Assembly: GCA_946902875.1 (NCBI GenBank)
Contig: OX336343.1
Coordinates: 15,237,596-15,301,595 of the forward strand
DNA: 64,000 bases
Direction of reading: 5' to 3'
DNA from: Nematopogon swammerdamellus
Lineage: Eukaryota; Arthropoda; Insecta; Lepidoptera; Adelidae
In this document: one piece after another, positions 3,906 through 57,661 of the stretch
Layout: each line of letters begins with the position of its first letter
Position numbering within the stretch: position 1 is the first letter of the stretch
Translations under genes and position numbers: made by a program
Notes under the pieces: model-generated
Databases searched by the model: none
What the model was told of the DNA's origin: nothing
What the model saw: the letters and a program-made list of their open reading frames with translations, nothing else

Positions 3906-4604
3906 CACCGACTTATTAGGTACATACAGGGTGTCCCAGAAACCGACGATAATCCTTTAACAGGAGATAGGGCTGCTAATTACCTCTCAGAATATCTAAT
4001 TTTAGGTTTAGTAAAAATGGCTTAGTTTTTGAGATATTGTCATTTTTGTAAAAATCCAAAATGTTCTCCCTCAGCTCATTTTTTTAAATGCCACAAGTAC
4101 AAATGTAAGATTTTCTTAAATCTAGTTTTTGTCAAATATTCCTGAAAAGTAAGGCTTTCACACGGTATAATTTATTTTTTTATGTTTAATCCTGTTTAGC
4201 TGAAAAACGACTTAAGAGCCACATGTCAAAAAATTTTCAGCCTCATCCCTTGAGTTTGGCCCTTCGCGGTGAAAAAAAAAATTACTACACTAAAGTGACA
4301 TTATGCACGAAAAATACGCCCATCTAATGTAGTTTTTAAAATGGTACATCACTTATCGATTTACCCAATAATTTATGAGATATTGTTATTTAACTGCAAA
4401 AGGACGTCGGAATTTGATAACCGTTCTACCAAGTACGAATTGGAATAAAATAAACACTTGAAGTAAATTGGTCTTTATTAACCTGTTAAAGTAGATGTTC
4501 AAATTGTTTACCACCCGCACAAATGCTAGCTCGACATCTTCTCACAAATGCCTGGTTGATGCGTCGAGCAAGTACTCGATGCAAGTGCAGATACGTCCAC
4601 CTAT

Positions 4605-4745
4605 GCTATGTAGTTTGTGTTTTCCGTCCAGTTGAGTGTAGCCGGCACGACCGAAGGGAAGCACTGACGTGGCACCAAGTTCACCCGGTGTTATGGGCTG
4701 ACATCACGGATGTTGTAGGTGATGTAGCCAACCATGTCAGTTTAC
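4605..4745 (+). repeat. SINE-1 3' part inside left palindrome arm
   Basis: From 'gtttgtgttttccgtccagt' to 'caaccatgtcagtttacat', the 3' half of SINE-1. It is mirrored at 5243-5392, so it was in the element before the arm was duplicated. Confidence 0.8.
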
Positions 4746-4761
4746 ATTAAAACCTACATAA

Positions 4762-4905
4762 AAACCTGAGCTACTGCCGTAATTCTTTCTTTGAGCTCTA
4801 TCAAGTTTTCCTCCAGTTTCCCGTAAACTTTTTCTTTTAAATAGCTCCAATAATAAAAATCTAGCGGATTTAAATCCGGTGATCTAGATGTCCGGTCTAT
4901 CTGTG
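4762..4905 (-). pseudogene. mariner-type transposase C-terminus, left arm copy
   Basis: Read on the minus strand, the frame gives 'SAYLKEKVYGKLEENL'-like sequence after a 'DLNPLDFYYW' block: a proline-aspartate-leucine signature followed by aromatic residues and W, typical of the final catalytic region of Tc1/mariner-IS630 transposases. Only the last fifty or so residues are present. It mirrors the sequence from about 5106 to 5236. Non-functional. Confidence 0.6.
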
Positions 4906-4961
4906 GGGATGCAAGTGGCTAGGAGCCCACAAGACGTCCGTTGAATTGTAGAGACTTTAAA

Positions 4962-5236
4962 CGGGCGAATTATCTTGATTTTCTGCAACAGCAGCTTCAG
5001 AGCCTTTTGGAAGATGTACCATTGGCCATACGGAGGTGGTTGCAAAATGATGGCTGCCCAGCCCATTACGCTAGAGAAGTGCGTAATTTTTTAGACCAAG
5101 CATTATCGGACGTCTAGGTCACCGGATTTAAATCCGTTAGAATTTTATTATTGGGGCTATTTAAAAGAAAAACTTACGGGAAACCGGTGGAAAATTTGAT
5201 ATAGCTCAAAGAAAGAATTACGGCAGTAGCTCAGGT
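4962..5236 (+). pseudogene. mariner/Tc1-superfamily transposase fragment
   Basis: The plus-strand frame reads 'YLDFLQQQLQSLLEDVP', then 'WLQNDGCPAHYAREVRNFL' and, after a frame change near 5110, 'SPDLNPLEFYYWGYLKEKL'. These correspond to the second catalytic aspartate region (QNDGCPAH) and the third acidic region (SPDLNPLEF) of DDE/D transposases of the IS630-Tc1-mariner group. The linker usually found between them is shortened, and the first catalytic block is missing. The part up to about 5105 is the unpaired centre of the palindrome and the rest lies in the right arm. The protein would be inactive. Confidence 0.75.
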
Positions 5237-5242
5237 TTTTTT

Positions 5243-5392
5243 TATGTAAACTGACATGGTTGGCTATATCAACTACAACATCCGTGATGTCAGCCCATAA
5301 CACCGGGTGAACTTGGTGCCACGTCAGTGCTTCCCATCGGTCGTGCCGACTATAGTCAACTGGACGGAAAACACAAACTATTTACATAGCAT
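5243..5392 (-). repeat. SINE-1 3' part inside right palindrome arm
   Basis: Reverse complement of the copy at 4605-4745, at the mirror position of the arm. Confidence 0.8.
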
Positions 5393-6077
5393 AGGTGGAC
5401 GTATCTGCACTTGCATCGTGTACTTGCTCGACGCATCAACCGGGCATTTGTGAGAAGATGTCGAGCTAGCATTTGTGCAGGTTGTAAACAATTTGAACAT
5501 CTACTTTAACAGGTTAATAAAGACCAATTACTTCAAGTGTTTATTTTATTCCAATTCGTAGTTGGTAGAACAGTTATCAAATTCCGAGGTCTTTTTGCAG
5601 TTAAATAACAATATCTCATAAATTATTGGGCAAATCGGTAAGTGATGTATCATTTTAGAAACTACTTTAGATGGGCGTATTTTTCTTGCATAATGCCACT
5701 TTAGTGTAGTAATTTTTTTTTTCACCGCAAAGGCCAAACTCAAGGGTTGAGGCTGAAAAAATTTTAACATGTGGCTCTTAAGTCGTTTTTCAGCTAAACA
5801 GGATTAAACATGAAAAAATAAATTATACCGCGTGAAAGCCTTACTTTTCAGGAATATTTGACAAAAACAAGATTTAAGAAAATCTTACATTTGTACTTGT
5901 GGCATTTAATAAAATGAGCTGAGGGAGAAAATTTTGGATTTTTACAAAAATGACAATATCTCAAAAACTAAGCCATTTTTACTAAACCTAAAATTAGATA
6001 TTCTGAGAGGTAATTAGCAGCCCTATCTCCTGTTAAAGGATTATCGTCGGTTTCTGGGACACCCGTATAAGTCGGTG

Positions 6078-35345: not shown

Positions 35346-35444
35346 GATGACTGGTCGAAATGTGAGATGGGATTGCGGAAAATCCTTGTGAAAATATTTT
35401 TTCCGCCTCGGAGCCGCTTCCACGTGTGATGCGAACCCTTCATA

Positions 35445-35755: not shown

Positions 35756-37104
35756 TCAAACGGCCCTTCACAACGCACTGAATTCCTATTTGCAGCTTCA
35801 GTTCAATTTTTAATCGACTTCCAAAAAAGGAGGAGGTTCTCAATTCGTCTGTATGTTTTTTTTTTTTTTTTTTTTTTTTGTATGTTTGTAAAACGATTTC
35901 TCCGTCAATTGAGGGCCGATTTAGAAAATTCTTTTTTTGTTAGTTAGGTCATACTTCCGAGGTGGTCCCATTTCAATTTTATCGAAATTGGTTCAGTGGT
36001 TTTCGAAAAATCAGCATAATACTATGGTGTGTGGTTACCTTCAGCAAAACTTGTGATGTGGTCGTTTTCGGCAATTTTCAGTTTGATAAATTAGTATGGT
36101 GTGTGGTTACCTTCAGCAAAACATTTGTGATGTGGACTTATTCAGCAATTTGCAGTCTGACACATATGGCGAATAATTCTGTACCACTTCAATCGATTTC
36201 GATTATTCGATTTCGATTATTCTTTTTTTATGTAATATTACTAAAAAGAATGAAATAAAAACTGTTTTAAAAAATATTAAACCGATTTCAAAAAAACAAA
36301 AAAACAAAAAGAACTAAAAAGTATTAAATACCTAATATTTTGAAATTTTCTCTGTCCTGTTGAAATACATGAATCGATATACTAGTGATACATATTCGGA
36401 CCCTTGCTTCATGAATATTCTAAATTTGAAATTTTTAATTTTTTCCGACCGGCGCTTACTTTATTATGGTACCTGGCCGGTACCTACTGTACCGAGTACC
36501 ATCGAGCTGGTTTGATGATGGAGACAGAAGGTGGCCATAGGAACTCCTAAACTACACATGATAAACCCATCGTGTTTGGGCTCGTTGCATTTGTCTTCAC
36601 GAGAAATTTACTTTAGACCTAAGAGATTCTCAATTCGACGGTATGTTTTCTTTTTTTGGATGTTTGTTACGCGATTACTCCGTCAATTGTGGGCCGATTT
36701 TAAAAATTCTTTTTTTTTTTATTTGAAAGGGGATAACCCTGAGGTTTTTGAAGTGAAAACTTCTTTAGCGGCTCTTGGCACTTTTTTAGGTGGGTAAAAA
36801 TGTATAACTCGCGACATCGCGTCAGCGTCATTTTTAAAATGAAACCTTAAGTCATTGCGTTAAGGGTTAAGTTAGAGTGGCACGGGATCTGCCGGCACTC
36901 CCGGAGTGCAACTGTTAAGTAGGGTTCCGTAACACGTTTATGTCTGTCCATTCTACTAAGTTCTGCAAAATGAATGTAGGGTTCCGTAACATATGCATGT
37001 CTATCCGTTCTACTAAATTTTACAATTTTCAACCGAGGTCCTCCGACGGTTATTTTATAATAAAAGTAGGCTTCCGTAACACGTTTATGTCTGTCCATTC
37101 TACT

Positions 37105-37461
37105 AAGTTCTGCAACATCACCTACAACGTCCGTGATGTCAGCCCATAACACCAGTGCCATGTCAGTGCTTCCCCCTTTGATCGTGCTGACTACACTGAA
37201 CTGGTCGGAAAACACAAACTATTTACATAGCCGTTTCGACCGACGTTTAATTCAGTGCGGCGGTACCAACCCGGGAAGGTTAAACCCTACCACCAAGTAA
37301 GATTACGAGGGAAGAGACTTACAGTTTTACGAGGAATCCGAACCTTGGTCAGCCTCCAACGGTCAGCGGTCACCCATCTAAGTACTGACCGCACCCAGCG
37401 TTGCTTAAAATTCAATAGCGACAGTTGACTGTCTGCACCACTGAGCTATCGAAGCTGACGT
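37105..37461 (-). repeat. SINE-1, near full length, inside Repeat F copy 1
   Basis: On the minus strand it has 'gatagctcagtggtgcagac' (box A), 'ttaagcaacgctgggtgcgg' (5S-like), box B-like 'ggttcggattcc' and the tail. A 14-base gap after 'cataacacc' is shared only with copy 3. Confidence 0.85.
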
Positions 37462-37574
37462 GGTCCTATTTTAATTGGGTCAAGATCGGATTGGAAAGCG
37501 AGGCGGAATCGCGAGGCCGAAGGCCGAGCGATTCCGCCGAGTACATTAATAGCAAAAAATTACTAAAAAAAACT

Positions 37575-37957
37575 GTGAAATAAAAAAAAAGTTTTAAAAA
37601 ACATAAAACCGACTTCCTAAAAAAAGTAAAACTAAAAAACTATTTAAAATAAAAATATAAAAACCACCTTCAAAAATATATGAAATAAAAACTTAAAAAA
37701 AAAAAACGAACCCTAGAGTTGAAGGCGGTGCTAAAGCAAGCAAAAATGATGCATGAAAGAAACATGAGTGGATGATAATATCCTTTGTGATTTGTGTAGC
37801 CTTTTTAGCACCGCCTTCAACTCTAGGGTTCGTTTTTTTTTTTAGGTTTTTATTTCATATATTTTTGAAGGCGGTTTTTATATTTTTATTTTAAATAGTT
37901 TTTTAGTTTTACTTTTTTTAGGAAGTCGGTTTTATGTTTTTTAAAACTTTTTTTTCA
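37575..37957. repeat. foldback end of Repeat F copy 1
   Basis: Arms of about 155 bp ('aaaccgacttcctaaaaaaa' to 'gagttgaaggcggtgctaaa' and their complements) surround a loop of about 65 bases that includes 'gatgataatatcctttgtga'. Two further copies lie at 54290-54654 and 55166-55497. Confidence 0.85.
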
Positions 37958-42817: not shown

Positions 42818-44915
42818 CTACTAATATTATAAACACGAAAGTTTGTGAATGAGTTCCGTTCAGGAAGACGATAGACCTACTCAAAGAAAGTAAGTAACTA
42901 AGGGCGAGGCCGAAGGCCGAGCTGCGTTCGGGAAGACTATAAACCTTCTCGGAGAAAGTAAGTAACAAAGGGCGAGGCCGAAGGCCGAGCTGCGTTCAGG
43001 AAGACCATAAACCTCGAAGAAAGCAAGTAACAAAGGGCGAGGCCGAAGGCCGAGCTGCGTTCAGGAAGACGATAAATTCTCGAAGACAGTAAGTAACTAT
43101 GGGCGAGGCCGAAGGCCGAGATGTGTTCAGGAAGAGGATAAACGTTTTTGATGAAAGTAACTAACAAAGAAGTTACTTTCTTCGAGAAGATTTATGGTCT
43201 TCCTGAACGCAGCTCGGCCTTTGGACTCGCCCTCTGTTACTTACATTCTTCGAAAAACCTTTCCTAAACGCAGCTCGGCCTTCGGCCTCGCTCTTTTTTA
43301 CTTACTTTCTTAAAGACTAGCTTTTGCCCGCGGCTTCGCTCGCGTGAAATTCGTATTTCAAAGGAAGAAAGTAAGTAACTAAGGGCGAGCTGGGTTCAGG
43401 TAAACGATATACCGTCTCGAAGAAAGTTAGCATCTTTTTGAGGCCGAAGGCGGAGTTGCGTTCAGGAAGACGATAAATCTTCTCGAAGACAGTAAGTAAC
43501 TATGGGCGAGGCCGAAGGCCGAGCTGCGTTCAGGAAGAGGATTAACCATCTTTAAGAAAGTAAGTAACAAAGGGCGAGGCCAAAGGCCGAGCTGCGTTCA
43601 GGAAGAGGATAACCTTTTCAAAGAAAGTAAGTAACTATGGGCGAGGCCGAAGGCCGAGCTGCGTTCAGGAAGAGGATAACTTTTTCTAAGAAAGTAAGTA
43701 ACAGAGGGCGAGGCCGAAGGCCGAGCTGCGTTCAGGAAGAGGATAACCTTTTCTAAGAAAGTAAGTAACAGAGGGCGAGGCCGAAGGCCGAGCTGCGTTC
43801 AGGAAAACTGAACCTTCTCGAAGACAGTAAGTAACTATGGGCGAGGCCGAAGGCCGAGCTGCGTTCAGGAAGAGGATAAACCATCTTTAAGAAGTAAGTA
43901 ACAAAGGGCGAGGCCGAAGGCCGAGCTGCGTTCAGGAAGAGGATAACCTTTTCGAAGAATTTAAGTAACAGAGGGCGAGTCCGAAGGCCGAGCTGCGTTC
44001 AGGAAGACCATAAATCTTCTCGAAGAAAGTAACTTCTTTGTTACTTACTTTCTTCGAAAAGGTTTATCCTCTTCCTGAACACATCTCGGCCTTCGGCCTT
44101 GCCCATAGTTACTTACTGTCTTCGAGAATTTATCGTCTTCCTGAACGCCGCTCGGCCTTCGGCCTCGCCCTCTGTTACTTACTTTTTTCGAAAAGTTTAC
44201 CCTCATGCTGGACGCAGCTCGGCCTTCGGCCTCGCTCATAGTTACTTACTGTCTTCGAAAAGATTTATCGTCTTCCTGAACGCAGCTCGGCCTTCGGCCT
44301 CGCCCTCTGTTACTTACTTTCTTCGAAAAGGTTATCCTCTTTCTGAACGTAGCTCGGCCTTCGGCCTCGCCCATAATTGCTTACTGTCTTCGAGAAGGTT
44401 TATCGTTTTCCTGAACGCAGCTCGGCCTTCGGCCTCGCCCTCTGTTACTTACTTTCTTCAAAAAGTTTACCCTCATGCTGGACGCAGCTCGGCCTTCGGC
44501 CTCGCTCATAGTTACTTACTGTCTTCGAAAAGGTTTATCGTCTTCCTGAACGCAGCTCGGCCTTCGGCCTCGCCCTCTGTTACTTACTTTCTTCGAAAAG
44601 GTTATCCTCTTTCTGAACGTAGCTCGGCCTTCGGCCTCGCCCATAATTGCTTACTGTCTTCGAGAAGGTTTATCGTTTTCCTGAACGCAGCTCGGCCATC
44701 AGCCTCGCCCTCTGTTACTTACTTTCTTCGAAAAGTTTACCCTCATCCTGAACGCAGCTCGGCCTTCGGCCTCGCCCATAGTTACTTACTTTCTTCGAAA
44801 AGGTTATCCTCTTCCTGAACGCAGCTCGGCCTTCGGCCTCGCCCTTAGTTACTTACTTTCTTCCTTTCAAATACGAATTTCACGCGAGCGAAGCCGCGGG
44901 CAAAAGCTAGTTATA
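42818..44915. mobile_element. Helitron-like element with a bidirectional minisatellite
   Basis: The left end 'ctaatattataaacacgaaa' with 'gtttgtgaatgag' and the right end 'gcgagcgaagccgcgggcaa' with 'aagctagt' are typical of lepidopteran Helitron-like nonautonomous elements. Between them lies an array of about 27 units of 65-75 bp, each with 'gaggccgaaggccgagctgc' and 'gttcaggaag'. Units point rightward at 42900-43165, leftward at 43166-43315, rightward again at 43380-44030 and leftward at 44036-44870. A second, internal right-end motif in reverse sits at 43316-43372, so an element end was duplicated during inversion. Reading frames through the array (such as 44099-44818) only reflect the repeat. 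Confidence 0.8.
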
Positions 44916-47164: not shown

Positions 47165-47260
47165 AACCCCCCAGCCGACGACCATGCCGCGCCGGCGCTC
47201 CGCGCCCCCGCGCCGCGCCGCCACCGCCCCCGCGCCGCCACCTCCCCCGCGCCGCCGCCG
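47165..47260. other. GC-rich island at transposon edge
   Basis: CCG-rich, reading 'ccgcgccgccgccgccgc'-like, ending exactly where the long inverted repeat begins. The other end of the element also abuts a GC-rich patch (51130-51160), so it could be part of the element. Confidence 0.55.
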
Positions 47261-48732
47261 CACTCTGGTTCGATACCTACCAAACGTGGACACGTACACT
47301 TTTTTTCGAATTTCGAATTTTTTTTTGCAGAATCTTATATGTCGACTAAATACAAGCTGCTTTTATTCTTTCGTGATTTTCTATAAAGTTGACGGTTACG
47401 GAGATAATCGACGAAATCTGATTTCGTTGTATGGAAATAGACACTTTTTATAAAATTTCTCGAAATGTTAAAATTTGTTAGAGTAGTGAGTTATATAAAC
47501 GTATTCTACACATGAGCCCCGACACGACTGTAAAAAAAACTCATCCCGCTACGTCCCGCTTTTCGTTTTATTTACATTTAAATATTTTTTTCTTGCTTAT
47601 TTTAAAAATAAAAATAAAATACCATAGTGTGCCTACGTTACCAAACGAGTAATCCATTTGCAAGAGTCAATGCTTAACTTTAAAGTTAAATAAATAAAAT
47701 AAGTAAATTTTGTGTCAAACTATAAAAATAAAGCACTCTGTAAACCCAATTTTTCGAGTAAAAAAGTGGTAATAATGTGCATATTACTTGTATTTTGTAT
47801 TCTATTGTAACAAAATCTACTAGAAATATTGAAACATTACCTACTACACGAAAACAAATCGTATAAAACGTAAAAACTTTTAAAAATAATTAATCATCCA
47901 GAATCATTCGTTTATTTCGTATCTATACTTAAAACTGCTGCATGCCTGAATATGCCGATACACGAAATGAATACACAGACGCGTAATAATGTATGTAGTT
48001 ACATCTGTCCTCAAAACTGTGGCATGCCTGAGTATGTCGATACTCTATAAAATTCTGATATTACATTATATTTACTCATTACGTTTGTATCAAATTTTAT
48101 AATTCATTATATCAAAACAGCTACAGGTCAGGGGCCTTGACTTGGGAATTATTGACGAAAATATACTGTACATTTATTTATTCTTATGTTGTCTTGCATT
48201 TAAGAGTATCGTCATGCATTTGTATAGAAATTTATAAACTCATCACTCAGTTGTAAAATTACACTTCTTGAGCAGAGCGAAGCGGCAACGTTGCATGAAC
48301 GGTACAGTTAATCTATGATACAACTAGTTCGTTAACTATATTATGTAACTCGCTCGTTCAATTTTTGGGGAATATCACATTAGTTATGAATTATAGTAGT
48401 CAATTAAATTAAATTTATGAAAACGAGTTTCTTTCTTTAGAATGCATGCAGTGTAGCAATCAGTTTCGCAGTTTATATAACTTACAACTGCTACTCACGG
48501 GGAGGGCTCGAGTATGAACGTATACTCTTCGGGGAATCTTGCTACTTCATCCCCATCAGGATGAATGAATTGATAAAGGGAAAGGATGTTGCAAATAGAG
48601 CAATCATTGCAGGAATAAGGCGGCTCCTGAGACAAAGGAAAAAGGAATAGGTGAGATACCAAATTATACAAACTTAAAACAATCTAGCACGTCAGGTTGT
48701 GAACTTAAATCAATAAATTCTATTTCTTGAAT

Positions 48733-49266
48733 TTATTTTTCCCCAAGTGGTGAGATCAAGAGAGATCGAACCTCATCTGGCAGTACTTTCGCAGTGTTTG
48801 TAATCATTTTTGGACCAATTGTTGTTAAGTATGGATCACATGAAAGCAATAAGTTATTCAAGATATCGTGATTTGATGCGCGTCTACTGATTTTTCGAGA
48901 ACGAAACTCTCTATAGTTTCGGAAATCCTTATTCCGGGCCTCAGATGCCTCTTTCGATAGGTGTTCTATTCCTATAGGAATAACATTCAAACGTTTAATT
49001 ATTTCGCTGCCATGAATAAGAAGTTTGTGAACGCTAAGTGGCATGCGATACCACCCATACAAAGCTACGAATAGCTTGGCAGTTTCTAAGGCATATTCGT
49101 GGAATTTTTCGATATGTATATTCAGACCACTAGAAATACTAATCAGAATAGTAGATAGTCTTTGAATACCTGTAATGTCTGAACTTAATGTGGGATTATC
49201 GAAAAAGCGTCGAGCCGTATTTCCGTCGTTTGTCGTCCCTAATCCCTGTTTCACAAAGTCAATCAA
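48733..49266 (-). pseudogene. transposon-encoded protein fragment, unknown superfamily
   Basis: The 177-codon frame has no upstream start: its 5' side ends where the inverted copy is joined (about 49267). Readable features are 'GTTNDGNTARRFFDNP', 'HKLLIHGSEIIKRLNVIPIG' and 'LSKEASEARNKDFRNYREF' with 'SCDP'. I recall similar sequence in uncharacterised, multi-copy arthropod proteins, but I cannot name the family. The inverted copy at 49300-49403 shows that the frame once went on for about 23 codons ('EIQEVEFIDLSS', ending 'CFEFV'). Here a GAA-to-TAA difference near 48735 ends it early. Both ends are thus damaged and the product is unlikely to work. Confidence 0.6.
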
Positions 49267-49289
49267 AAAGTCAAAAAGTCAAAAACAAA

Positions 49290-49438
49290 CACTGCGAAAG
49301 TACTGCCAGAAGAGGTTCGATCTCTCTTGATCTCACCACTTGGGGAAAAAGAAATTCAAGAAGTAGAATTTATTGATCTAAGTTCACAACCTGATGTGCT
49401 AGATTGTTTTGAGTTTGTATAATTTGGTAATTTGGTAT
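49290..49438 (+). repeat. inverted copy of the ORF 3' end inside the right arm
   Basis: Plus-strand reading gives 'VLPEEVRSLLISPLGEKEIQ' and the intact ending, mirroring 48660-48810. It shows that the inverted repeat reaches into coding sequence. Confidence 0.75.
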
Positions 49439-49518
49439 GAGTAGCAGTTGTAAGTTATATAAACTGCGAAACTGATTGCTGTACTGCATGCATTCTAAAG
49501 AATGAAGAAGAACTCATA

Positions 49519-49916
49519 CATACATACATACATACATAACACACGCTGTAACCCGACAATCAGGGTAAGCAGAGTAATCGGTGTTGTGCTATAAGAACTC
49601 TGGTAAATTACAGCACAACACCGACCACCACGCTTAGCACAGTATACGGACAAGATAGAACAAATTGTGACAAGTTCGAGCGCAGCCTAACTGCTGTATG
49701 AATGATCAATAAACAATACAATACAATACAACTATCAAGCAGCAAGTAAGGCACGAAGAATGACTAGGTGGAAGGACTGCGCCAAGGTGAGAAGTGGCTA
49801 GCCTGTCGCCCTTTAGCGCAGTATCTTGTCCTTATTCCTTAGTCGCCTCTTACGACATTCACGGGGAGAGATGCAGTTGGGCTATTCTTTTTAAGTACCG
49901 GCCCCACACGGTACTC
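49519..49916 (-). repeat. Repeat B inserted into the right arm
   Basis: Matches Repeat B in reverse ('agtaagcagagtaatcgg'-like to 'ccggccccacacggtactcg'). The left arm of the transposon lacks it at 48433-48440. 'actc' flanks the insert on both sides. It begins with an (ACAT)n tract and contains 'aatacaatacaatacaac'. Confidence 0.75.
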
Positions 49917-51129
49917 GTTTTCATTAATATAATTTAATTGACTACTGTAATTCATAACTAAATCTTCCCCAAAAATTGAGCGAGCGAGTTATATAATATA
50001 ATTAACGAACTAGTTGTATCATAGATTAACTGTACCGTTCATGCAACGTTGCCGCTTCGCTCTGCTCAAGAAGTGTAATTTTACAAATGAGTGATGGATG
50101 AGTTTATAAATTTCTATACAAATGACAAATGACGATACTCTTAAATGTAAGACAACATAAGAATAAATAAATGTACAGTATATTTTCGTCAATAATTCCT
50201 CAAGTCAAGGCCCCGGACCTGTAGCTGTTTTGATATAATGAATTATGAAATTTGATACAAACGTAATGAGTAAATATAATGTAATATCAGAATTTTATAG
50301 AGTATCGACATACTCAGGCATGCCACAGTTTTGAGGATAGATGTAACTATATACATTATTACGCGTCTGTGTATTCATTTCGTGTATCGGCATACTCAGG
50401 CATGCCGCAGTTTTAAGGATAGATAGATACGAAATAAACGAATGATTCTGGATGATTAATAATTTTTAAAAGTTTTTACGTTTTATACGATCTGTTTTCG
50501 TGTAGTAGGTAATGTTTCGTTATAAAAATCCATGGAAAGTACATTATGTTGTACGTTTCAATATTTCTAGTAGATTTTGTTACAATAGAATACAAAATAC
50601 AAGTAATATGCACATTATTACCACTTTTTTACTCGAAAAATTGGGTTTACAGAGTGCTTTATTTTTATAGTTTGACACAAAATTGACTTATCTTATTTAT
50701 TTAACTTTAAAGTTAAGCATTGACTCTTGCAAATGGATTACTCGTTTGGTAACGTAGGCACACTATGGTATTTTATTTTTATTTTCAAAATAAGCAAGAA
50801 AAAAAAATTAAAATGTAAATAAAACGAAAAGCGGGACGTAGCGGGATGAGTTTTTTTTACAGTCGTGTCGGAGCTCATGTGTAGAATACGCTTATATAAC
50901 TCACTACTCTAACAAATTTTAACATTTCGAGAAATTTAATAAAAAGTGTCTATTTCCATACAACGAAATCAGATTTGGTCGATTATCTCCGTAACCGTCA
51001 ACTTGATAGAAAATCACGAGATAATAAAAGCACCTTGTATTTAGTCGACATATAAGATTCCGCAAAAAAAAATTTGAAATTCGAAAAAAAGTGTGGATGT
51101 CCACGTTTGGTAGGTATCGAACCAGAGTG

Positions 51130-51661
51130 CGCCGCTCCGGCGCGCCCGTCGCCGTGTCTGCTGACTCGCGCAGCAACCCGGTATCCACTATCCGCGACTC
51201 AGCCCCACCCATGCGACCATAATATATTACTGTAATTCGTAGTTGTGCAATAGAATTTATTTTCATTTAATTTCATATCTTTAGTTGTTAAGAAAAATTG
51301 TTCCATCTCACTCGGAGTGCACGAAACTCTTTACTCACGTGCAATGTGCCCCAGAGGGTCACACTAGACCACACAAATGAACCCCGACACCAGTGTAGCC
51401 GCAATTAGAGCGAGAACAGGATAACTTCAACGCTTTCGTCTCAAATGTACGTAGTATTAACTTTTCTAGAGTGCCAAGTTTGTAAATGCGTTGTGCCCTT
51501 TTAATATACATTTCTATGACAAATCATTTTTACAATAATTAGGATAAAGTCTGGTACTTATATGAATAAATAAGAAAGGCATTAAGAAGTTAACTAACAT
51601 AACTAGTAGGTTGTGAAAGTGCTACTAAAACAACAACAACACTATAAGTTCATATTTTTTT
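51130..51661. other. no feature recognised
   Basis: Starts CpG-rich, then ordinary AT-rich sequence. Confidence 0.4.
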
Positions 51662-51932: not shown

Positions 51933-52327
51933 CAATATATACATAATATAGCTTTTTTTTACATAATTTTATTTGTAGGGCTATTAACAACATATAGCCT
52001 ACAGCTTAGACTTTGTGAACAGATTTGCGTGCTGTTTTCATCGTTGCAAAGTCATGGCAAAATAAATTCGAAAATATTATATTAAAATTAAAGTAGTAAG
52101 ATTTTTAAAGTTATAATAATAGACATAATTTTTTAGATACAATATCTTAGCATTACGTCGTTAATTGGTATTTTAATTACTGCCAGTCCTAGTTTATCCT
52201 AGTTCAGTCCAGTCCCAGTATTAACACACCGACATCAAATTAAATTTTTGATATTCACAGATTAAGCACTAATTACATATTTTTCGAAACATACAAATAT
52301 TTATGTGAATTTCTATATTAATTTTTA
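51933..52327. other. AT-rich spacer
   Basis: No feature recognised. Confidence 0.4.
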
Positions 52328-54654
52328 ACCGACTTCCAAAAAAGGAGGAGGTTCTCAATTCGTCTGTATGTTTTTTTTTTTTTTTTATTTTTTTTTTTAT
52401 TTTTTTTTTGTATGTTTGTTACGCGATTTCTCCGTCAATTGAGGGCCGATTTAGAAAATTCTTTTTTTGTTAGTTAGGTCATACTTCCGAGGTGGTCCCA
52501 TTTCAATTTTATCGAAATTGGTTCAGTGGTTTTCGAAAAATCAGCATAATACTATGGTGTGTGGTTACCTTCAGCAAAACTTGTGATGTGGTCGTTTTCG
52601 GCAATTTTCAGTTTGATAAATTAGTATGGTGTGTGGTTACCTTCAGCAAAACTTTTGTGATGTGGACTTATTCAGCAATTTGCAGTCTGACACATATGGC
52701 GAATAATTCTGTACCACTTCAATCGATTTCGATTATTCGATTTCGATTATTCTTTTTTTATGTAATATTACTAAAAAGAATGAAATAAAAACTGTTTTAA
52801 AAAATATTAAACCGATTTCCAAAAAACAAAAAAAAAAAGAACTAAAAAGTATTAAATACCTAATATTTTGAAATTTTCTCTGTCCTGTTGAAATACATGA
52901 ATCGATATACTAGTGATACATATTCGGACCCTTGTTTCAAGAATATTCTAAATTTGAAATTTTTTATCTTTTCCCACCGGCCAGGTGCGCTTAATTTATT
53001 ATGGTACCTGACCGGTACCTACTGTACCGAGTACCATCGAGCTGGTCTGATGATGGAGACAAAAGGTGGCCATAGGAACTCCTAAACTACACATGATAAA
53101 CCCATCGTGTTTGGGCTCGTTGCATTTGTCTTCACGAGAAATTTACTTTAGACCTAAGAGATTCTCAATTCGACGGTATGTTTTCTTTTTTTGGATGTTT
53201 GTTACGCGATTACTCCGTCAATTGTGGGCCGATTTTGAAAATTCTTTTTTTTTTTTATTTGAAAGGGGATAACCCTGAGGTTTTTGAAGTGAAAACTTCT
53301 TTAGCGGCGCTTGGCACTTTTTTAGGTGGGTAAAAAATGTATAACTCGCGACATCGCGTCAGCGTCATTTTTAAAATGAAACCTTAAGTCATTGCATTAA
53401 GGGTTAAGTTAGAGTGGCACGGGATCTGCCGGCACTCCCGGAGTGCAACTGTTAAGTAGGATTCGGTAACACGTTTATGTCTGTCCATTCTACTAAGTTC
53501 TGCAAAATGAATGTAGGGTTCCGTAACAAATGCATGTCTGTCTGTTCTACTAAATTTAACATTTATTTCAAAATGGATGTAGGGTTCCGTAACAAATGCA
53601 TGTCTGTCCGTTCTACTAAATTTTACAATTTTCAACCATGGTCCTCCGACGGTTATTTTATAATAAAAGTAGGGTTCCGTAACAAATGTATGTCTGTCCG
53701 TTCTACTAAATTTCACAATTTTCAACGAAGGTCCTCCGACGGTTATTTTATAATAAAAGTAGGGTTCCGTAACACGTTTATGTCTGTCCATTCTACTAAG
53801 TTCTGCAACATCACCTACAACGTCCGTGATGTCAGCCCATAACACCGGGTAAACTAAGTGCCATGTCAGTGCTTCCCCCTTTGATCGTGCTGACTACACT
53901 GAACTGGTCGGAAAACACAAACTATTTACATAGCCGTTTCGACCGACGTTTAATTCAGTGCGGTGGTACCAACCCGGGCAGGTTAAACCCTACCACCAAG
54001 TAAGATTAGGAGGGAAGGGACCTACAGTTTTACGAGGAATCCGAACGTCGGTCAGCCTCCAACGGTCAGCGGTCACCCATCCAAGTACTGACCGCACCCA
54101 GCGTTGCTTAACATTCAATAGCGACAGTTGACTGTCTGCACTACTGCGCTATCGAAGCTGACGTGGTCCTACTTTAATTGGGTCAAGATCGGATTGGAAA
54201 GCGAGGCGGAATCGCGAGGCCGAAGGCCGAGCGATTCCGCCGAGTACATTAATAGCAAAAAATTACTAAAAAAAACTGTGAAATAAAAAAAAAGTTTTAA
54301 AAAACATAAAACCGACTTCCTAAAAAAAGTAAAACTAAAAAACTATTTAAAATAAAAATATAAAAACCGCCTTCAAAAATATATGAAATAAAAACCTAAA
54401 AAAAAAACGAACCCTAGAGTTGAAGGCGGTGCTAAAGCAAGCAAAAATGATGCATGAAAGAAAACATGAGTGGATGATAATATCCTTTGTGATTTGTGTA
54501 GCCTTTTTAGCACCGCCTTCAACTCTAGGGTTCGTTTTTTTTTTAGGTTTTTATTTCATATATTTTTGAAGGCGGTTTTTATATTTTTATTTTAAATAGT
54601 TTTTTAGTTTTACTTTTTTTAGGAAGTCGGTTTTATGTTTTTTAAAACTTTTTT
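52328..54654 (+). repeat. Repeat F copy 2
   Basis: Same order of parts as copy 1. It is longer because the minisatellite (53459-53810) has about five units instead of three, each with 'tagggttccgtaacaaatg' and 'tctgtccgttctactaaat'. It contains SINE-1 at 53805-54162 and the foldback end at 54290-54654. Faces copy 3. Confidence 0.85.
53805..54162 (-). repeat. SINE-1 inside Repeat F copy 2
   Basis: Complete from tail to box A. It keeps the 'gggtaaactaagtg' segment missing in copies 1 and 3. Confidence 0.85.
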
Positions 54655-55165
54655 TTTTATTTTATTGTATGATTGAACGTGTTCACTTATCCACGTCAAG
54701 ATATTTCATGTGTGTCGTGTGCATGTATAGCCCGGGGTCTCGACTCATTAATGTGCAAAAGCCATTAGACCTAAAGGCATAATGCGTCTGTGTAAAACCG
54801 GTCTAGTTGCACGTACCCAGTTCCACCTCCCCCCTCGCTGCTGGATACAGCGTTCCGCAATTTACACTATAACTGCAGGTGAAGTTAGATATTAAAGAGT
54901 TAAGTAATGTAGAGAGGCAGACAAACTGAGTCTTGATTATGGTAGACGCCAAACATTGCGTGGAATATTATATGAGTTGTATTGCTAGTGTAAGGAAGAA
55001 TTAGGAGAGTTGGTAAGAATTTTGAAGAGATAATAATTACGAGTAAGTAGGTACCTACATTCACAGCGAGAGCGAAATAACGAGCCTGTCGCTGAAAATA
55101 TATTTAAATTCGGCCCGTAGGCTGATGAAGAAAAAACTTAACTTACACATAACGTAACTTAAAGA
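54655..55165. other. spacer between inverted Repeat F copies
   Basis: About 510 bases of single-copy sequence with a CCCC-rich patch near 54830. No coding or RNA feature recognised. Confidence 0.5.
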
Positions 55166-57284
55166 AAAAAGTAAAACTAAAAAACTATTTAAAATAAAAA
55201 TATAAAAACCGCCTTCAAAAATATGTGAAATAAAAACCTAAAAAAAAAACGAACCCTAGAGTTGAAGGCGGTGCTAAAAAGGCTACACAAATCACAAAGG
55301 ATATTATCATCCGCTCATGTTTTCTTTCATGCATCATTTTTGCTTGCTTTAGCACCGCCTTCAACTCTAGGGTTCGTTTTTTTTTTAGGTTTTTATTTCA
55401 CATATTTTTGAAGGCGGTTTTTATATTTTTATTTTAAATAGTTTTTTAGTTTTACTTTTTTTAGGAAGTCGGTTTTATGTTTTTTAAAACTTTTTTTTTA
55501 TTTCACAGTTTTTTTTAGTAATTTTTTGCTATTAATGTACTCGGCGGAATCGCTCGGCCTTCGGCCTCGCGATTCCGCCTCGCTTTCCAATCCGATCTTG
55601 ACCCAATTAAAATAGGACCACGTCAGCTTCGATAGCTCAGTGGTGCAGACAGTCAACTGTCGCTATTGAATTTTAAGCAACGCTGGGTGCGGTCAGTACT
55701 TAGATGGGTGACCGCTGATCGTTGGAGGCTGACCAAGGTTCGGATTCCTCGTAAAACTGTAAGTCCCTTCCCTCGTAATCTTACTTGGTGGTAGGGTTTA
55801 ACCTTCCCGGGTTGGTACCACCGCACTGAATTAAACGTCGGTCGAAACGGCTATGTAAATAGTTTGTGTTTTCCGACCAGTTCAGTGTAGTCAGCACGAT
55901 CAAAGGGGGAAGCACTGACATGGCACTGGTGTTATGGGCTGACATCACGGACGTTGTAGGTGATGTTGCAGAACTTAGTAGAATGGACAGACATAAACGT
56001 GTTACGGAAGCCTACTTTTATTATAAAATAACCGTCGGAGGACCTTGGTTGAAAATTGTAAAATTTAGTAGAACGGATAGACATGCATATGTTACGGAAC
56101 CCTACATTCATTTTGCAGAACTTAGTAGAATGGACAGACATAAACGTGTTACGGAACCCTACTTAACAGTTGCACTCCGGGAGTGCCGGCAGATCCCGTG
56201 CCACTCTAACTTAACCCTTAACGCAATGACTTAAGGTTTCATTTTAAAAATGACGCTGACGCGATGTCGCGAGTTATACATTTTTACCCACCTAAAAAAG
56301 TGCCAAGAGCCGCTAAAGAAGTTTTCACTTCAAAAACCTCAGGGTTATCCCCTTTCAAATAAAAAAAAAAAGAATTTTCAAAATCGGCCCACAATTGACG
56401 GAGTAATCGCGTAACAAACATCCAAAAAAAGAAAACATACCGTCGAATTGAGAATCTTTTAGGTCTAAAGTAAATTTCTCGTGAAGACAAATGCAACGAG
56501 CCCAAACACGATGGGTTTATCATGTGTAGTTTAGGAGTTCCTATGGCCACCTTCTGTCTCCATCATCAAACCAGCGCGATGGTACTCGGTACAGTAGGTA
56601 CTGGCCAGGTACCATAATAAATTAAGCGCCGGTCGGAAAAGATAAAAAATTTCAAATTTAGAATATTCATGAAACAAGGGTCCGAATATGTATCACTAGT
56701 ATATCGATTCATGTATTTCAACAGGACAGAGAAAATTTCAAAATATTAGGTATTTAATACTTTTTAGTTTTTTTTTTTTTTGTTTTTTGGAAATCGGTTT
56801 AATATTTTTTAAAACAGTTTTTATTTCATTCTTTTTAGTAATATTACATAAAAAAGAATAATCGAAATCGAATAATCGAAATCGATTGAAGTGGTACAGA
56901 ATTATTCGCCATATGTGTCAGACTGCAAATTGCTGAATAAGTCCACATCACAAATGTTTTGCTGAAGGTAACCACACACCATACTAATTTATCAAACTGA
57001 AAATTGCCGAAAACGACCACATCACAAGTTTTGCTGAAGGTAACCACACACCATAGTATTATGCTGATTTTTCGAAAACCACTGAACCAATTTCGATAAA
57101 ATTGAAATGGGACCACCTCGGAAGTATAACCTAACTAACAAAAAAAGAATTTTCTAAATCGGCCCTCAATTGACGGAGAAATCGTGTTACAAACATACAA
57201 AAAAAAAATAAAAAAAAAAATAAAAAAAAAAAAAAACATACAGACGAATTGAGAACCTCCTCCTTTTTTGGAAGTCGGCTAAAA
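55166..57284 (-). repeat. Repeat F copy 3, inverted
   Basis: Begins inside the foldback ('aaagtaaaactaaaaaacta'), lacking the last 30 or so terminal bases, and ends with 'ctccttttttggaagtcgg'. It has three minisatellite units and SINE-1 at 55624-55975. It shares several diagnostic differences with copy 1 against copy 2. Confidence 0.85.
55624..55975 (+). repeat. SINE-1 inside Repeat F copy 3
   Basis: The clearest example of the composite head: box A 'tagctcagtgg' (55633-55643), 5S-like segment 55673-55715 ('ttaagcaacgctgggtgcgg', 'tacttagatgggtgaccgct') and box B-like 'ggttcggattcc' (55737-55748). Confidence 0.9.
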
Positions 57285-57661
57285 ACTAAAACAAAAATGA
57301 CAATAGAAGAGGAAAGAAGTTGACAATAATATAAAATTGTCTTCTAAACATCATCATAAAACCGCGTGAACACAATATCGGTGGCGCCATCTACACGCGA
57401 CAGACGCATATCACTGTTCAGTGATCGACGACATACTGCTTCAAGTTAATGAATTCTCATAGATCCAAAGGCGGCACAAGATAAATCATCCTATATATAC
57501 AATGGCGCTTGCATCTCGCTGACGTAAAATTAAGCTTCTATACATAGCACGTAGAATAACAAGCTCTCAATTAATATTACTTAAAAGTTTCTCAGCAATA
57601 ACTGTGAAAGTGAGCGTAGACAGTACTGGAACCAAGCGTTTCTTTCACAAATGCATTATTT
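57285..57661. other. no feature recognised
   Basis: Mixed AT-rich sequence. Confidence 0.4.

Follow-up and report, generated by a model that had tools for sequence, protein, structure and literature searches.

Target duplications of 5 bp are made by both the RAG recombinase and transposons of the Transib superfamily (PMC7204232). Hztransib of Helicoverpa zea, for example, is a 3518-bp element encoding a 489-amino acid protein, which is flanked by a GCTCG duplication and has been described with 'long TIRs' (terminal inverted repeats), a description that states no repeat length (PMC1852546). Non-autonomous derivatives of the superfamily include the Helicoverpa Transib miniature inverted-repeat transposable elements (MITEs), which measure 75–564 bp, carry 13–57-bp repeats and belong to a category defined as lacking coding capacity (PMC9033116). 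Galileo of Drosophila was initially classed as Foldback-like, a placement that changed with the discovery of its transposase (PMC3573991). The element considered here lies at positions 47261–51129 of a 64,000-nucleotide stretch (the window) of the genome of the lepidopteran Nematopogon swammerdamellus (GenBank assembly GCA_946902875.1, contig OX336343.1, positions 15,237,596 to 15,301,595 of the forward strand) and is very probably a non-autonomous foldback derivative of the Transib superfamily.

The element is a single palindrome with arms at 47261–48801 and 49285–51129, modified by a later insert and a later deletion. Its ends at 47261 and 51129 are element boundaries (CACTCTGG...CCAGAGTG) with CGCCG directly outside both, and the interval 47261–51129 given by an earlier reading made from the DNA letters without database searches (the sequence-only reading) proved exact, coinciding with the termini and the flanking CGCCG. 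Positions 47248–48428 are inversely paired with 49913–51144 over 1236 aligned columns (92% counting gaps), 48429–48497 with 49438–49506 (96%) and 48657–48801 with 49285–49429 (96%), and the principal ungapped inverted segments are 94–99% complementary. A 41-bp repeat is present in two copies within each arm. Very long terminal repeats and a separate inner inverted pair had been proposed for this locus; the great length of the repeats holds, but distinct 'terminal' and 'inner' pairs are ruled out, as these are collinear segments of one palindrome, interrupted by an insert of ~406 bp in the right arm and by the absence of 159 bp from the same arm. The features of the element, each with the basis of its assignment, are as follows:

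47256–47260, no strand: left copy of the target-site duplication, CGCCG (read at the locus).
47261–48801, plus strand with the gene on the minus strand: arm A, 1541 bp, the Transib transposase-3′ end from the terminal CACTCTGG to 45 codons into the gene (inverted alignment).
47261–47292, plus strand: terminal motif CACTCTGGTTCGATACC...GGACA (compared with the ends of the relatives L041 and L043).
48498–48656, no strand: 159-bp arm stretch, missing from arm B (locus comparison).
48664–48801, minus strand: transposase gene 3′ end, copy 1, with the last 45 codons and the stop TAA at 48664–48666 (inverted alignment).
48733–49266, minus strand: open reading frame (ORF) of 177 amino acids, the C-terminal part of a Transib/RAG1-like transposase, with a TTG start (homology).
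48802–49284, minus strand: single-copy spacer (palindrome loop), 483 bp, transposase sequence reaching roughly residue 500 of the relative L041 (tblastn).
49267–49290, no strand: fold junction with short AAAAAGTC repeats (aligned across loci).
49285–49422, plus strand: transposase gene 3′ end, copy 2, inverted, with the last 44 codons open to the stop TAA (translation).
49285–51129, minus strand: arm B, inverted copy of the same transposase-3′ end (inverted alignment).
49507–49912, no strand: ~406-bp interspersed repeat within arm B (alignment and locus comparison).
51130–51134, no strand: right copy of the target-site duplication, CGCCG (read at the locus).

Copies were compared within the assembly that contains the window (699 Mb, 39 contigs), where 38 loci were read (the window and 37 others; L001–L008, which coincide with the window or with other loci, are excluded from all counts). 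The 159-bp stretch is kept in both arms at 22 of the 33 loci compared, and its absence from arm B is therefore probably due to a later deletion in the sub-lineage of the window. More than 150 bases of the ~406-bp insert were found at 25 of the 33 loci compared. Partial relatives of this insert also occur elsewhere in the window, at 35441, 24042, 63141, 9974, 30338 and 26682.

The 177-amino acid ORF matches the HzTransib transposase structure 6pqn (E=1.6e-47, residues 1–158), and it has 106 database relatives, of which the named ones belong to insects and two spiders and one is labelled 'dna-mediated transposase'. It represents the C-terminal part of the protein, with an alignment that begins at residue 500 of the 718-residue relative L041 from the same genome. 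Between the original stop codon and the element end there are 1403 bp, and a premature TAA ends the window ORF at 48733. The last 45 codons are repeated in the opposite sense in arm B, where 44 of them are translated openly to the stop; the sequence-only reading was thus right that the ORF has its 3′ end twice, once in each sense, and the premature TAA is in the A-arm copy. Each arm consists of the last 45 codons and the 3′ noncoding sequence, which measures 1403 bp in the left arm, so that both element termini are transposase-3′ ends. The noncoding length is close to that of L041 (1245 bp) and L043 (1416 bp), the two other Transibs in which ends were located. Both termini start with CAC, resembling the heptamer of a recombination signal sequence (CACTCTGG at both ends; L041 has CACAGTG). 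CGNCG is a known form of Transib target duplication, and the superfamily, which had been left open earlier, is identified as Transib by the 6pqn match, the 5-bp CGNCG duplications and the CAC ends. hAT and Sola, the initial guesses, were dropped once the duplication proved to be CGNCG, the ends to start with CAC and the protein to match HzTransib. No copy read contains a complete transposase gene, the mark of an autonomous element: in tblastn comparisons with the 718-residue relative, no remnant at any of the 36 loci with a match begins before residue 500 (L028 and L040 gave no match).

The terminal motif, allowing at most one mismatch, occurs 100 times genome-wide (50 per strand; 0 for a reversed control pattern), and these ends form 49 plus/minus pairs and two singles. 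In 47 of the 49 pairs, the two copies of the duplication have the same third base, the two exceptions being changed within CGNCG. Both ends are present at 35 of the 38 loci read; 33 of these 35 have perfect duplications, all 33 of the CGNCG form (30 CGCCG/CGGCG and 3 CGACG/CGTCG). Paired elements range from 811 to 11063 bp in length, and 44 of the 49 measure between 3.1 and 4.3 kb. The proposal of a foldback transposon with target-site duplications in other copies is borne out by these 49 paired ends and 47 agreeing duplications, and the element has the very long inverted arms, the short middle and the mobility as a unit that define the foldback-like structural class. Palindromes are prone to mis-assembly, and the structure might in principle reflect an assembly artefact or chance; however, the 49 paired copies lie on many contigs, 47 of them with agreeing duplications, and the top inverted score inside 47261–51129 reaches 1803 bits as against at most 38 bits in dinucleotide shuffles (n=50). 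These independent insertions refute an artefact or a chance palindrome, for which the remaining probability is negligible.

The insertions at the 35 loci with both ends lie in locally GC-rich, often CGG/CCG-rich DNA that extends past the 5-bp target, with a mean flank GC of 97% in the first six bases (duplication included), 83% in the next six and ∼42% beyond 120. At one locus (L028:777–1587), an 811-bp deletion derivative retains intact ends and duplications, a MITE-like product of the foldback. Viral contigs gave 0 exact matches to the 30-base terminal pattern.

The fold junction between the spacer and arm B is common to 37 of the 38 loci (L021 aligned only partly), and the 38th, the 811-bp L028, lacks the junction region. 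At the junction, the short AAAAAGTC repeat shows unit changes between loci, and arm B extends slightly further in L021 and L023. In a midpoint-rooted tree of 65 of the 68 arms (the incomplete L021_A, L021_B and L023_A were omitted), one split with a support of 0.959 separates 61 of the 65 arms by side, and the A–A and B–B distance matrices are correlated (r=0.74; 0 of 2000 permutations as high). Because the junction is shared and the arm phylogenies largely agree, the family goes back to one fold-back event, after which the element was amplified as a unit. Mean divergence is 3.2% between the two arms within an element and 2.7% (A–A) and 2.5% (B–B) between elements; since within-element arm divergence exceeds like-arm divergence and the two distance matrices are correlated, the fold preceded most of the amplification. 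The closest arms are ∼0.2% apart, and the nearest copy to the window, L010, differs from it by 0.3–0.4%, which indicates recent movement. Of the 25 copies in which the codon is readable, 23 carry the premature stop; L021 and L023 carry GAA there, and the L023 B arm is the outermost of the B group in the tree, from which L021 and L023 may represent an older form. The locus L040 (2780–6457) has the junction in the usual orientation with the insert on the A side, and this A side falls with the L045 and L048 B arms in the tree; the middle of L040 may have been flipped via arm–arm recombination.

The element would then have arisen when an inverted copy of one end (the 3′ noncoding sequence and the last 45 codons) took the place of the 5′ end and the first ∼500 codons at the other. 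Judging from the anatomy, this most likely happened when the repair of an excision gap was aborted: each of the two broken ends would have been extended by copying the same end of the element, and the two would then have been joined inside the gene, so that the product has like ends and lacks a complete transposase gene. A transposase supplied in trans could still move such a foldback because both of its ends share one origin, and mobilization in trans is itself indicated by the presence of target duplications in an element that lacks the N-terminal two thirds of the gene. A Transib transposase would thus cut the foldback and paste it into CGNCG targets, amplifying it as a unit; inserts, deletions and, now and then, conversion or recombination between the arms would have followed later. 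The mobilizing enzyme would have been that of the parent or that of a relative at 60–63% identity.

Searches of the genome, in which the best candidates were scored (150 of 1327, 40 of 257 and 40 of 466), did not find an intact close parent among the scored candidates; the matches read at ≥90% identity are all foldbacks, and none of the best 150 of 1327 candidates combines ≥90% identity with an open frame longer than 234 codons. Unread high matches sit between ends at foldback spacing, with the exception of C2:9264569 (a spacer match with no ends in the motif list, its sequence unread). The next-best relatives in the genome have 60–63% identity, many with a 751-codon open frame. The related autonomous copy on which the sequence-only reading had made its idea depend is thus absent as a close relative among the scored candidates, but present in the form of these more distant Transibs with long open frames. 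L041 (1105–5769) is a 4665-bp Transib with a 718-codon gene and short terminal repeats; it has a 61-nt inverted pair in subterminal position and is flanked by CGCCG duplications, and its ends agree with the foldback terminal motif at 21 of 32 (left) and 22 of 32 (right) positions. Similarly, L043 is close to L041 in length and has short terminal repeats and CGACG duplications, with ends that agree at 20 of 32 and 14 of 32 positions; L042 has a 772-codon open frame, and no ends were located in it by the script. Transibs of the L041, L042 and L043 types are candidate helpers. Dozens of other genome matches share the 751-codon frame and have nearly the same score as each other, and the equal frame length and near-equal scores suggest a recent burst of these copies. 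In the protein databases, the best identity over at least 140 amino acids was 60% among 227 compared sequences (the window's own P0107, a 44-amino acid C-terminal piece; the 106 relatives of the 177-amino acid ORF; and 120 of 220 matches), and among the 106 relatives the identity over shorter stretches reached up to 62%.

The long arms could alternatively belong to a Transib family with natural kilobase terminal repeats, the window copy being just internally deleted. The copies read do have long repeats, except for the 811-bp L028, and the 'long TIRs' of Hztransib, of unstated length in that description (PMC1852546), would fit such a family. However, the repeat enters the transposase frame by 45 codons and the junction lies within the gene in the aligned copies, and L041 and L043 of the same genome have short terminal repeats. 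With both the repeat and the junction inside the reading frame, natural long repeats were judged very unlikely.

Several points weigh against a folded Transib derivative with a single origin, the preferred reading. The 'long TIRs' of Hztransib are one of them, and the GCTCG duplication of the same element (PMC1852546) means that CGNCG is not universal in the superfamily. The Pfam RAG1 match of the ORF is sub-threshold (E=0.01). The parent was not found and may have been missed because only the best candidates were scored, and the assignment of the arms to the parental 3′ end, as opposed to a natural long repeat, rests on the position of the gene and the anatomy of relatives. Moreover, the B arms of L032, L040, L045 and L048, four of the 65 in the tree, lie off-side, a pattern suggestive of arm-to-arm conversion, and the nearest neighbors of the two arms differ in 14 of 32 elements (they are the same in 18 of 32).

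The ORF itself might encode a repressor protein, a C-terminal Transib fragment with a function of its own. Short P-element proteins repress P transposase, and the frame stays open for ∼180 codons, and up to 234, in many copies. Against this, the ORF starts without an ATG, the premature stop interrupts it in 23 of 25 readable copies, and the single-base codon variants in 36 copies comprise 17 synonymous, 62 non-synonymous and 2 stop changes (21, 77 and 2%), where neutrality with a 4 to 1 weighting of transitions predicts 29, 68 and 3%, so that there is no sign of purifying selection on the ORF. A repressor was rejected on the missing ATG and the codon pattern, and its likelihood is rated as extremely low.

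An added function that is compatible with the foldback derivative described above, and that the sequence-only reading had suggested, is that of a mobile silencer, in which read-through RNA would form double-stranded RNA of ∼1.3 kb and give rise to small RNAs against Transib transcripts with this 3′ end, a mode of action that has been proposed for Mu killer and its target MuDR. The anatomy resembles that of Mu killer, with two transposase-adjacent ends and a partial inverted transposase gene (PMC3440606). In addition, the last 45 codons and the 3′ noncoding sequence are present in both arms, and no close intact parent was found among the scored candidates, which is what its silencing to extinction would lead one to expect. 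However, when the element was compared with one member from each of three other Transib families, the longest exact word shared was 15 bases with L041, 18 with L042 (part of the locus) and 13 with L043. The arms of one element also diverge by 3.2% on average, their identity not being maintained, the variant codons of the ORF fit neutrality, and autonomous parents are commonly lost without silencing. The word matches, the arm divergence and the neutral codons make past silencing of a vanished parent less likely, and a silencing function of the element is on the whole unlikely. In a stronger and less likely version, the element would be a mobile Mu killer, the hairpin RNA of which drove its parent extinct, after which a related Transib with a similar terminal motif, and a 3′ end too different for the small RNAs, would have kept moving the foldback. 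If this were true, the silencer would have been spread selfishly by the family beyond its silencing reach.

The window contains other inverted structures. A second, larger palindrome stands beside the foldback at 52309–57298, with segments of 1344 and 958 columns (94 and 97%) and CCGACTTCC near its ends, and 35807–37918 is a half related to this palindrome. An inverted pair of ∼970 bp lies at 3924–6068 (3924–4894 with 6068–5107, 94% identical), and 67-bp satellite arrays at 42851–44863 run in opposite orientations, facing near 44036.

The RAG recombinase acts on a pair of unlike ends (the 12/23 rule), and its relative ProtoRAG is most efficient when the ends are asymmetric (PMC8289069). A multi-copy element with both ends from one end amounts to an experiment made by nature and suggests that a transposase of the Transib type can use two like ends in vivo. 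Such use is less surprising given that most Transib families have symmetric ends (PMC8289069), and both symmetric and asymmetric Transib ends have been reported (PMC9435367, PMC8355894). An animal element with the architecture of Mu killer and tens of independent insertions also provides a setting for asking whether foldback derivatives silence their own family.

Foldback or long-repeat derivatives are already known in other superfamilies, as are Transib MITEs, and no foldback Transib was found in the literature searched (titles and the beginnings of abstracts, with Repbase and subscription journals outside the coverage). The Foldback-like elements of Drosophila, including Galileo, share long inverted arms and arm exchange with the present element; membership of Galileo requires a P-superfamily transposase, whereas the foldback has that of Transib. 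The long-repeat variant of Bari1 in D. rhopaloa similarly has two identical long ends, but it is a putatively autonomous member of Tc1-mariner (PMC4877112), and the foldback has no complete transposase. The Helicoverpa Transib MITEs are, like the foldback, non-autonomous Transib derivatives with 5-bp duplications. In Mu killer, a derivative of MuDR in maize, both ends likewise derive from the one next to the transposase gene, part of which is inverted on itself (PMC3440606). Mu killer is, however, a single locus that silences MuDR, whereas the foldback is a mobile animal family of ∼50 with a hypothetical silencing function, for which no close target was found. With the Transib superfamily (Hztransib of Helicoverpa zea, PDB 6pqn, and the Transibs of Drosophila and Anopheles), the element shares transposase homology, CAC ends and 5-bp duplications, and it differs from these known Transibs in its kilobase inverted arms, both from one end, and in having no complete transposase gene.
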